Assembly (NCBI GenBank): GCA_024413465.1
Contig: JAKSVU010000016.1
Coordinates: 1-38,159 of the forward strand
Length of the DNA: 38,159 bases
Direction: 5' to 3'
Source of the DNA: Alphaproteobacteria bacterium
GTDB lineage: Bacteria; Pseudomonadota; Alphaproteobacteria; CAAGCB01; CAG-977
The number at the start of each line of letters is the position of its first letter. Position 1 is the stretch's first letter. A model generated the notes under the pieces. The model saw only the letters and a program-made list of their open reading frames with translations, did not search any database and was not told the origin of the DNA. A program made the position numbers and the translations under genes. This document shows positions 21,537 to 25,057 of the stretch, piece by piece.

Positions 21537-21899
21537 TTATTTTGCTTCAGCGTCTTCTGCAATACGAGCAGCTTTACCACGTAAGTTGCGGAGGTAATAC
21601 AACTTAGAACGAGCTACTTTACCGCGACGTGTAACTTCAACTTTTGCTACATTTGGAGAATAAACTGGGAATACTCTTTCTACGCCTTCACCAAATGAAA
21701 TTTTACGAACGGTAAATGTAGAATTCAAACCGTCGTTTTTACGAGCGATACAAACACCTTCATAAATTTGAATACGTTCACGTTCACCTTCAACTACTTT
21801 TGCGTGAACACGAACGGTATCGCCTGCTTTAAATTCAGGAAAATTAGCTTTTGCTAACTTAGCTACTTGCTCTTTTTCAAGTGTTTCAATTAAATTCAT
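21537..21899 (-). CDS. rplS: 50S ribosomal protein L19
   Basis: Large-subunit protein at the interface with the 30S subunit. The family core [20 protein letters not shown] is followed by IQIYEGV. The stretch [20 protein letters not shown] and the C-terminal [14 protein letters not shown] are classic L19. The length of 120 residues is usual. GAGG lies about 9 nt upstream of the ATG. It is last in the ffh-rpsP-rimM-trmD-rplS run, 4 nt after the trmD stop. Confidence 0.98.
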
Positions 21900-21903
21900 A
21901 ATT

Positions 21904-22611
21904 TTAATCCTCTTGCTTTACAGCTTGCTGATAAGTTTTCCACAAATCAGGTCGCCGTATCTTTGTTAATTCTTGCGACGCTTTTAAACGCCAATCTCTA
22001 ATTTTTTGATGATGACCAGAATTTAAAACTTCTGGCACCATACGCCCACGCCATTCAGCAGGACGCGTATATTGCGGATATTCTAATAAACCATTTGAAA
22101 AACTTTCTTCATCCAATGATTCACTAGACCCCATTACACCCGGTATCAATCTAACGATAGCGTCCAACATAGCTAAACAAGCTGGCTCACCACCTGATAA
22201 TACAAAATCCCCTAAACTGACTTCTTCGAAAGGATATTCTTCCAACAAGCGTTCATCTATCCCTTCAAATCTACCACATAAAAACGTTGCTGTTCCCTTA
22301 TCTTTTATTTCTTCAACCTTGCGTTGAGTCATTCTCTGACCACGAGGTGAAAAATAAATCAAAGGTTCTCCTTCATGATATACAGCGTCAATAGCTTTTC
22401 CCAAAACATCTGGACGCATAATCATTCCGGCACCACCACCAAAAGGAGTATCATCTACAGTCTTGTGTTTATCCGTTGCATAATCGCGAATATCCACAAC
22501 GTTCAAATTCCACATCCCTTTGTCAAGGGCTCTTCCGGCCAATGAAATTCCCAAATAACCAGGAAACATTTCCGGAAAAACTGTCAAAACATTGGCATCA
22601 AAGTTACTCAT
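21904..22611 (-). CDS. trmD: tRNA (guanine-37-N1)-methyltransferase
   Basis: Uses S-adenosylmethionine to make m1G37 in tRNAs with G36-G37, preventing +1 frameshifting. The tRNA-Pro in this window is such a target. The SPOUT trefoil-knot motifs are [28 protein letters not shown] and [22 protein letters not shown] start at the ATG 22611 ([18 protein letters not shown]), which gives 235 residues as in the family. The open frame extends 16 codons further upstream into rimM but has no homology there. It overlaps the rimM stop by 8 nt, so the two are translationally coupled. Confidence 0.97.
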
Positions 22612-23146
22612 CAACTCTTTCCACTGTTTTAACTTCAACGTAATCTGGCAAACGAACAATCAAAGTTTTATTTTCTAAATCAATTTCAGGAACTGTTTCG
22701 TTAGTAAATGATAAAAAATCAACATTTTCACCAATTTCCAACATATCACCTGCCCCAAAATTGTGAATTGCTTTGACCTGTCCTAAAATTTTACCATCCG
22801 TTGTCTTGGCCGTTAAACCAATTAAATCCGTATAATAAAATTCATTCTCTGCCAATTCAGGTAAAACGTTTCTATTTACGTATAACTTCACACCTCGCAT
22901 AGCTTCGGCAGTAGTTCTATCTTTAACCGTATCAAGCTGGACTAAAAATTGATCACCAATTTTACCGACCACCTTTACAGAAAACGTTCTTTTTCCATCA
23001 GACACTGCCCCATATTTGGCAAAATCTTCTGGATTTTTGGTGTAGCTCTTGACTTTAACTTGACCTTTGACCCCGTGAGCCGTTGTAATCATAGCAATGC
23101 AAACTGCCTTACCTGTTTTTACTTGGTCCCCGTTTTCTCCAGCCAT
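22604..23146 (-). CDS. rimM: Ribosome maturation factor RimM
   Basis: Assists maturation of the 30S head, acting with S19. It has an N-terminal beta-barrel with [17 protein letters not shown] and a C-terminal PRC-barrel with [22 protein letters not shown] and [10 protein letters not shown] chose the ATG at 23146 (MAGENGDQ). A TTG two codons earlier is in frame, but its AGGA would be only 4 nt away, against 10 nt for the ATG. The product is 180 residues, average for the family. It lies 19 nt after rpsP and overlaps trmD. Confidence 0.95.
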
Positions 23147-23165
23147 TGTCAAGATTTCCTAATTC

Positions 23166-23525
23166 TTATGCTTCTGCCTTTGCAGCTTCAGCAGCTTCAG
23201 CTTTTGCTTTTGCACGTTCAACAGCTTTAGCTTTTGGAGCTGATTTTTGTGGACGAGCATTTAATACTGGAGCACTGCATAAGCCCAATTTAGCCAACAA
23301 TTTTTGAACACGTTCTGTAGGTTGTGCACCAACGCTCAACCAATATTTAATGCGTTCTTCTTTAACGATAACACGCTTTGCGTCGTCTGCTGACAACAAT
23401 GGATTATATGTACCAACGCGTTCAATAAAACGACCATCACGTGGACAACGTTGATCTGCTACAACGATTTTGTGGAAAGGAGCACCTTTCGAACCACCGC
23501 GAGCAAGTCTAATACGTACTGACAT
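23166..23525 (-). CDS. rpsP: 30S ribosomal protein S16
   Basis: Small-subunit assembly protein. The core [40 protein letters not shown] and [20 protein letters not shown] is unmistakable. The C-terminal extension of about 30 residues is a low-complexity Ala/Lys/Glu tail, common in alphaproteobacterial S16. GAGG lies 9 nt before the ATG. It is the second gene after ffh, with a 40-nt gap. Confidence 0.98.
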
Positions 23526-23565: not shown

Positions 23566-24939
23566 TCAATGTGGAAAACCACCAAAAGGAGGAAATCCAC
23601 CACCAAGCATATTTGACAGACCACCAAACATGCCTCGTTTTCCCATTTTTTTCATCTTTTTCATCATATCTGCCATTTGTTCATATTGTTTCAACAATTT
23701 GTTGACATCTTGAACTGATTGCCCACATCCCGCAGCAATACGCTTTTTACGAGATGCTTTGATGATATCCGGATGACGGCGTTCATCAGGCGTCATGGAA
23801 AGAATAATCGCCTCTAGCCGTTTAAAAATATTGTTATCAATTTGAGCTGCATCGATTTGGGCTTTAAATTTTCCCATACCTGGCAACATTCCTAACAAAC
23901 CTTTTAAATCACCCATGTTTTGCATTTGTTTAAATTGGCTGAGCAAATCATTTAAATCAAAATGCCCATCCATCATTCTTTTAGCAACACGTTCTGCTTC
24001 TTCTTTATTAATTTTTTCAGCAGCATTTTCAACGAGAGAAACAACATCCCCCATATCTAAAATACGACCAGCTAAACGATCTGGATGAAATACTTCTAAT
24101 GGTTCAATTTTTTCACCATTACCTAAAAACTTAATTGGACGTCCTGTAATTTGGCGCATAGACAATGCTGCACCACCACGGCTATCACCGTCGATACGAG
24201 TTAAAATACTTCCCGTAATACCAATTTTTTCATTAAATTCTTTGGCGATATTTGCAGCGTCTTGACCTGCCAAGGCATCAACGACTAACAGAGTTTCTTT
24301 TGGATGAACGATATTTTTGATTTCAATCACTTCACCCATCATTTCCAAATCAATGTGCAAACGACCAGCCGTATCTAAAATAACGACGTCATAGCCCCCT
24401 AATTTAGCTTCACTCATTGCACGAAGAGCAATATTTTTTGGTTGTTCACCAACGATAATTGGCAAACTATCAACACCGATTTGTTTTCCTAAAATAGCTA
24501 ATTGTTCTTGAGCTGCAGGACGATAAATATCCAATGAAGCCAACAAAACACGCTTATTTTCTTTTTTTAACTTCAAAGCTAATTTAGCAGAAGAAGTCGT
24601 TTTACCTGAACCTTGTAAACCAACCATCATTACCGGTACGGGAGGAACTGCAGCTAAATCTAATTCGTTATTTTCAGCGCCAAGTGTTTCCACCAAAGCA
24701 TCGTGAACAATTTTAACAACCATTTGGCCTGGAGAAACTGATTTGATAACTTCTTGACCGACAGCACGTTCACGAACTGTTTCAACAAATGATTTAACGA
24801 CAGGTAAAGCAACATCCGCTTCTAATAAAGCTATTCTTATTTCACGCATTGCCGAATCGACATCAGATTCACTTAACACACCGCGACCTGTCAAGCGATT
24901 AAAAATGCCACTCAATTTTTCCGACAACGTGTCGAACAT
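23566..24939 (-). CDS. ffh: Signal recognition particle GTPase Ffh
   Basis: Binds signal sequences on the ribosome and, with 4.5S RNA and FtsY, delivers membrane proteins to SecYEG. It has an N domain; then a G domain with GLQGSGKTTSSAKLA, DTAGRLH and TRIDGDSRGG; then a Met-rich M domain (from about residue 300), with SMTPDERRHPDIIKASRKKR binding the SRP RNA and a Met/Gly-rich tail. The length is 457. AAGGA lies 8 nt before the ATG. It heads the ribosomal run, with its own consensus promoter and a structured leader of about 110 nt. A tiny open frame of eight codons (24941-24967) ends 1 nt before the ffh ATG. Confidence 0.98.
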   Translation of the reverse strand: MFDTLSEKLSGIFNRLTGRGVLSESDVDSAMREIRIALLEADVALPVVKSFVETVRERAVGQEVIKSVSPGQMVVKIVHDALVETLGAENNELDLAAVPPVPVMMVGLQGSGKTTSSAKLALKLKKENKRVLLASLDIYRPAAQEQLAILGKQIGVDSLPIIVGEQPKNIALRAMSEAKLGGYDVVILDTAGRLHIDLEMMGEVIEIKNIVHPKETLLVVDALAGQDAANIAKEFNEKIGITGSILTRIDGDSRGGAALSMRQITGRPIKFLGNGEKIEPLEVFHPDRLAGRILDMGDVVSLVENAAEKINKEEAERVAKRMMDGHFDLNDLLSQFKQMQNMGDLKGLLGMLPGMGKFKAQIDAAQIDNNIFKRLEAIILSMTPDERRHPDIIKASRKKRIAAGCGQSVQDVNKLLKQYEQMADMMKKMKKMGKRGMFGGLSNMLGGGFPPFGGFPH

Positions 24940-24958
24940 ACTATTTTTCCTTCATTTT

Positions 24959-25026
24959 ATTAGCCATAGACAAAAAGAGCGTCAGTGGGCGTAATCGCTG
25001 GCTGACGGACCCTCGCAAGGGCTAAC
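24959..25026 (-). ncRNA. Structured 5' leader RNA of ffh (candidate cis-regulatory element or sRNA)
   Basis: The segment is clearly richer in GC than its surroundings. Read as minus-strand RNA it folds into nested elements. GUUAGCC (25020-25026) can pair with GGCUAAU (24959-24965) and close a junction. Inside is a small hairpin CCCU-UGCG-AGGG (25010-25021). A longer one (24980-25007) has CGUCAG / CUGACG, a symmetric CCA/CCA internal loop, and GCG-AUUA-CGC. The long hairpin is followed by CUC and five U, so it could terminate. Whether this is an attenuator, a ligand-binding leader or a separate RNA of about 80 nt is unknown. It does not carry the SRP RNA domain IV signature. Confidence 0.5.
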
Positions 25027-25057
25027 GGATACAAAATCCTTGATAATTTAGGTCAAA

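Follow-up and report, generated by a model that had tools for sequence, protein, structure and literature searches.

The closest described system to the element studied here is the ffh motif, a single bulged hairpin with two conserved cytosines that precedes ffh and whose transcript was detected in metatranscriptomes (Meyer et al. 2009, PMC2704228). We take Rfam family RF01793, which Rfam files under the type "Gene; sRNA", to be this motif. A year before, the candidate RNA sm5 had been predicted in the dapF/ffh gap of S. meliloti, with a sigma-70 promoter, a predicted Rho-independent terminator and a microarray signal (PMC2573895), and a list of sRNAs expressed in Bartonella includes an ffh leader RNA (PMC7717549). 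Meyer et al. remarked that control of Ffh at the transcriptional or translational level had not been described and, based on fewer genomes than are used here, reported the motif absent from Rhodospirillales (PMC2704228).

In the window, a 38,159-nucleotide stretch of an alphaproteobacterial contig, ffh on the minus strand is separated from a TTGACA promoter by a GC-rich leader (24959-25026). This is the known orphan leader first described in 2008-2009, in a branch that is divergent and structurally extended. GC content is 0.50-0.51 over 24950-25054; in the immediate flanks it is 0.27-0.34 on the upstream and 0.34 on the downstream side. The features of the locus are as follows.

25086-25081, minus strand: perfect -35 box TTGACA of the ffh promoter, from the sequence
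25063-25058, minus strand: -10 box TATAGA, matching 4/6 of the consensus after a 17 nt spacer, from the sequence
25026-25020, minus strand: 5′ arm GUUAGCC of the closing stem, 7 bp with GGCUAAU including one G-U, in the predicted fold
25021-25010, minus strand: small 5′ tetraloop hairpin CCCU-UGCG-AGGG, with a counterpart hairpin class-wide
25007-24980, minus strand: main hairpin CGUCAG-CCA-GCG-AUUA-CGC-CCA-CUGACG, supported by the leave-family-out model R2 and by covariation
24968..24976, minus strand: U-rich tail UUUUUGUCU, with U5 at 24976-24972; the class consensus is a U-rich stretch, then GUUUG
24967-24941, minus strand: eight-codon frame ATG..TAG, ending 1 nt before ffh
24965-24959, minus strand: 3′ arm GGCUAAU of the closing stem, from a pairing search and the predicted fold
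23566..24939, minus strand: ffh (SRP54; Pfam PF00448, PF02978, PF02881), the first gene behind the leader
21537..23525, minus strand: rpsP, rimM, trmD and rplS (Pfam PF00886, PF01782, PF01746, PF01245)

The promoter, GC island, stems, tetraloop, CCA/CCA loop, U5 and short frame of the original prediction were thus all confirmed, positions included. Judging from the promoter, transcription is expected to start near 25051. A consensus promoter scanner did not flag the ffh promoter, because it demands T as the last base of the second hexamer. Among 102 alphaproteobacterial ffh leaders, 87 have TTGAC at least 40 nt 5′ of the hairpin, compared with 6% of shuffled regions. The genes ffh-rpsP-rimM-trmD-rplS all run in one direction and probably form one operon. 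The upstream neighbour is a relative of UDP-glucose dehydrogenase, with a strong intrinsic terminator of its own (25129-25105, minus strand; 9-bp stem, 9 T) that separates it from the ffh unit.

The 72-nt element has a fold energy of -24.1 kcal/mol, compared with -15.4 (sd 3.0) for shuffled sequences (z -2.9), and 2 of 200 shuffles were equal or better. Bases 25021-25020 belong to both the closing stem and the tetraloop hairpin, so the two cannot both form at full length. In the minimum-energy fold a longer rod replaces the tetraloop hairpin, whose 3′ arm pairs with the U-run. The suggestion that the eight-codon frame couples translation to this fold did not survive comparison: the frame is confined to the window, the other family members have no like ATG frame there, and it has no Shine-Dalgarno sequence.

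At gathering scores, an Rfam scan of the full window returned tRNA only. A permissive scan of the leader aligned all 52 model positions of RF01793 ("ffh sRNA") to 25020-24972 at 24.4 bits (E 0.011); the Rfam search put forward with the original prediction therefore yielded a full-length alignment together with a score below the gathering score of 35. RF01793 matched none of four genomes drawn from the window's family. We gathered ffh upstream regions through ffh protein homology, disregarding RNA features, and built covariance model R1 from an alignment of 73 sequences and model R2 from 84 R1-positive sequences outside the window's family; the alignment register of R2 came from R1, which held four family sequences. 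R2, which contains no family sequence, detected the window at 47.2 bits (E 2.9e-10, 24967-25024) and all 12 of 12 family members. Because the R2 alignment includes RF01793-positive leaders (for example L019, L021, L023, L030 and L050), this detection establishes homology to the ffh motif. The leader also has the defining traits of the motif of Meyer et al. (2009), namely a position directly upstream of ffh, a bulged covarying hairpin and two conserved bulge cytosines. The statement that it matches no named family was consequently wrong: the leader is not unnamed, and the window's lineage scores under the database cut-off. We assign the window to a divergent branch of the ffh motif, filed apart from RF01793 hits proper. 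A dispersed GC-rich repeat was rejected, as DNA search and R2 both found a single genomic copy (second R2 match, E 3.3).

The main stem consists of 12 pairs around a C-C mismatch, and 11 of the 12 show changes on both sides; 95.7% of main-stem cells are paired. The whole-structure covariation score was 0.484, compared with 0.202 for shuffled alignments and at most 0.12 when the structure was slid, for sequences preselected for pairing, a step that dropped only 17 of 126 unique regions. A descriptor with the central C-C mismatch fits 109 of these 126 unique ffh upstream regions and 39 of 630 shuffles, and exchanging C-C for G-G, A-A or U-U left 11, 6 and 3 fits, respectively. The mismatch is C-C in 83 of 84 non-family leaders (the other being U-C) and in 12/12 family members; since R1 was trained on C-C sequences, the descriptor control is fairer evidence than the count in the 84. 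In the window the conserved mismatch is C25000.C24987, within the CCA/CCA internal loop. The U-A pair beside it has become C.A in 11 of 12 family members, enlarging the internal loop, which may explain the low RF01793 score. The original proposal that the ffh operon begins with a structured leader RNA therefore held up in a refutation test set beforehand: compensatory changes were found, and the element is present in all 12 genomes of the window's family.

The small 5′ hairpin occurs in 67% of alphaproteobacterial leaders, compared with 29% of shuffles, with double changes at 5/5 pairs. The closing stem is a clade-specific addition. Its score comes from a pairing search instead of column counts, because the differing registers of the arms defeated MAFFT alignments that included the 3′ arm. 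Scores of at least 14 were reached by 11 of 12 family members and 10% of shuffles; in other Alphaproteobacteria the stem is at chance level (16%, with 16.5% for shuffles), and we rejected it as a class-wide feature. Within the family, the window has GUUAGCC/GGCUAAU and most members have CCUUAUGC with arms such as GCAUAGGG or GUAUAAGG; L142 carries CCUUUUGU/GCAAAAGG, an A-U to U-A exchange, and L007 a weak CUUAC/GUAAG. Most family members' predicted folds contain the closing stem, and in many of them the small hairpin gives way to pairing between the U-run and upstream purines; two alternative states are thus possible on the modelled folds. Separately, in some Rhodospirillaceae-type and marine genomes (e.g. 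L048, L053, L058 and L070) the region between the promoter and the small hairpin seems to contain a third one, such as CCGCATCGATGGCCGATGCGG.

R1 matched 192 of 289 alphaproteobacterial genomes, nearly always once each, and the copy number of the element is practically one per genome. Roughly two thirds of Alphaproteobacteria, or more, thus keep the leader before the essential ffh gene. In the same 289 genomes RF01793 gave 74 matches at E 0.001, 58 of them above the cut-off. The Rfam model recovers about 40% of R1-matched genomes. Entire lineages escape it, some Rhodospirillales among them: Niveispirillum and Roseospira, for example, have the element, in contrast to the absence from this order stated in 2009. 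Its coverage of the ffh-motif family is poor. Among 200 Pseudomonadota genomes, R1 matched 0 of 149 outside Alphaproteobacteria and gave 47 matches, all in Alphaproteobacteria, with four more alphaproteobacterial genomes unmatched. In 14 control genomes, Caulobacter vibrioides among them, RF01793 gave no match. Of 59 located matches, 58 are placed directly before ffh in the same orientation; the remaining one comes ahead of an ffh start just beyond which the contig breaks off, making 59/59. Downstream, rpsP comes next after ffh in 71 of 73 element-bearing loci, the remaining two ending before or near its expected position. As side observations, 6 of 20 named ffh loci (L035-L080) pass the RF01793 cut-off, yet R1 detects nearly all of them, and L161, upstream of ffh in G037, has a hairpin CGUCGC..GUGACG at the right place that the model missed, possibly a degenerate copy.

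A U-rich stretch directly follows the stem, with a conserved (G)UUUG about 10 nt further on, where U occupies two central positions in 77 and 72 of 84 leaders. A tail with at least 5 T in 8 nt was found in 12/12 family members and 51 of 84 other leaders, and throughout the window's family the U-run has a length of 5-7. The (G)UUUG about 10 nt past the stem (alignment A4, columns 60-64) persists where the proximal U-run is missing, for example in the Rhizobiales-type leaders L063 and L069. Hairpin-stabilised pauses have a similar hairpin-to-U-rich spacing (~10-11 nt). Spacing varies less between the -35 box and the hairpin (median 86 nt, IQR 83-96, sd 13.7) than between the hairpin and the ATG (median 65 nt, IQR 55-82, sd 18.7, range 37-151), suggesting that the element is tied to the 5′ end of the RNA and not to the start codon.

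We favour, with a probability of roughly 0.5, a cis-acting reading in which the hairpin and U-tail pause or terminate RNA polymerase early. Transcription would start near 25051, and the small hairpin and the main C-C-mismatch hairpin would fold within the first ~75 nt; the U-rich tail would come next, with the extra stem enclosing both hairpins in the window's family. Polymerase would then pause or terminate soon after initiation, leaving a stable short RNA of ~80 nt and thereby setting the amount of ffh message, and a factor bound at the conserved mismatch (Ffh or another RNA-binding protein) could tune the output. The short transcripts already reported agree with the release of such an RNA. 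The original prediction had offered a transcription attenuator, a ligand-binding leader or a stand-alone RNA; the structured leader stands, and for this clade the element's position and its U-tail speak most for an early attenuator or pause. Against an attenuator, the U-run is itself engaged by upstream purines in extended folds. A terminator scanner did not flag the leader hairpin, probably owing to its internal loop and to the distance that separates it from the U-run. With 33 of 84 non-family leaders lacking 5 T in 8 nt, termination cannot be how the element works across the class, unless the tail serves as a pause site. A literature search for functional studies of the element found none among open-licence papers.

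The strongest competitor, a possible but less probable account, is a leader for autogenous control, in which Ffh, S16 or some other product would bind the C-C hairpin and lower the translation or stability of the operon mRNA, and no termination would be involved. A near-invariant mismatch in a stem that otherwise covaries freely resembles a recognition site, and the constancy of rpsP behind ffh (71/73) also speaks for this account. Distances of 37 to 151 nt between hairpin and ATG, however, sit poorly with a bound protein directly blocking the ribosome site. For Ffh itself, Meyer et al. saw no likeness to the Ffh-bound part of 4.5S RNA (PMC2704228), and RF00169 (bacterial small SRP RNA) gave no match to the leader at E 10. 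Gene order was discarded as a test between the two partners because rpsP follows ffh in every sufficiently long locus.

Combining pausing with feedback, one can picture a class-wide, Alphaproteobacteria-specific device in which the C-C-mismatch hairpin, held at near-constant distance from the promoter, makes pausing or termination answer to Ffh or SRP status. We regard this version as rather unlikely; if true, the leader would form a regulatory circuit acting directly on the signal recognition particle, and one clade would have added a closing stem to it.

That the element is an independent trans-acting small RNA merely sharing the ffh promoter region is doubtful. The Rfam type of RF01793 and the short transcripts reported from metatranscriptomes (PMC2704228) and Bartonella (PMC7717549) would suit such an RNA, but its confinement to ffh (59/59) in practically one copy per genome would not, the stem letters vary freely, and there is little conserved single-stranded sequence for a seed. 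It is similarly improbable that the hairpins have no part in regulation and serve only to shield the message or guide its processing by RNase: the element does lie near the 5′ end of the RNA at a fairly constant promoter distance, but simple stabilisation needs neither an invariant internal mismatch nor a fixed tail. Finally, we dismiss a terminator of the UDP-glucose dehydrogenase-like gene, to which a hairpin plus U-run might point, and a misplaced SRP RNA, the former contradicted by that gene's separate strong terminator at 25129-25105 with the ffh promoter in between, the latter by a 4.5S RNA gene elsewhere in the genome (G000:C120, 48.8 bits) and the lack of an RF00169 match.

The ffh element is now broader and better defined than on record. 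How bacteria set the level of Ffh is poorly understood, and a single-copy leader with a near-invariant mismatch is a sharp target for this question.

Early pausing or termination, the reading that we prefer, would place the ffh leader beside the his and trp leaders, which likewise have a hairpin early in the operon and then, in the manner of the U-rich GUUUG, a U-rich site ~10-11 nt on; unlike them, it has no leader peptide and no competing hairpin that is demonstrably conserved across the class. The Bartonella bacilliformis ffH leader RNA (PMC7717549) is likened to it by locus, not by sequence, as an ffh leader among expressed sRNAs. S. meliloti sm5 (PMC2573895) occupies the same place (dapF<, ffh>), with a sigma-70 promoter, a predicted Rho-independent terminator and a length of ~108-258 nt, but it is rhizobial, was defined as a candidate sRNA and not as a leader, and is matched by position and not residue by residue. 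Closest is the ffh motif (RF01793; PMC2704228), which shares the bulged hairpin upstream of ffh, the covarying stem, the two bulge cytosines, the alphaproteobacterial range and an alignment over all 52 positions. The window differs from it in scoring 24.4 bits, below 35, and in the C.A that replaces U-A beside C-C in 11/12 family members; and to the single hairpin of the published motif, which has no closing stem, the window's family adds both such a stem and a longer U-run.
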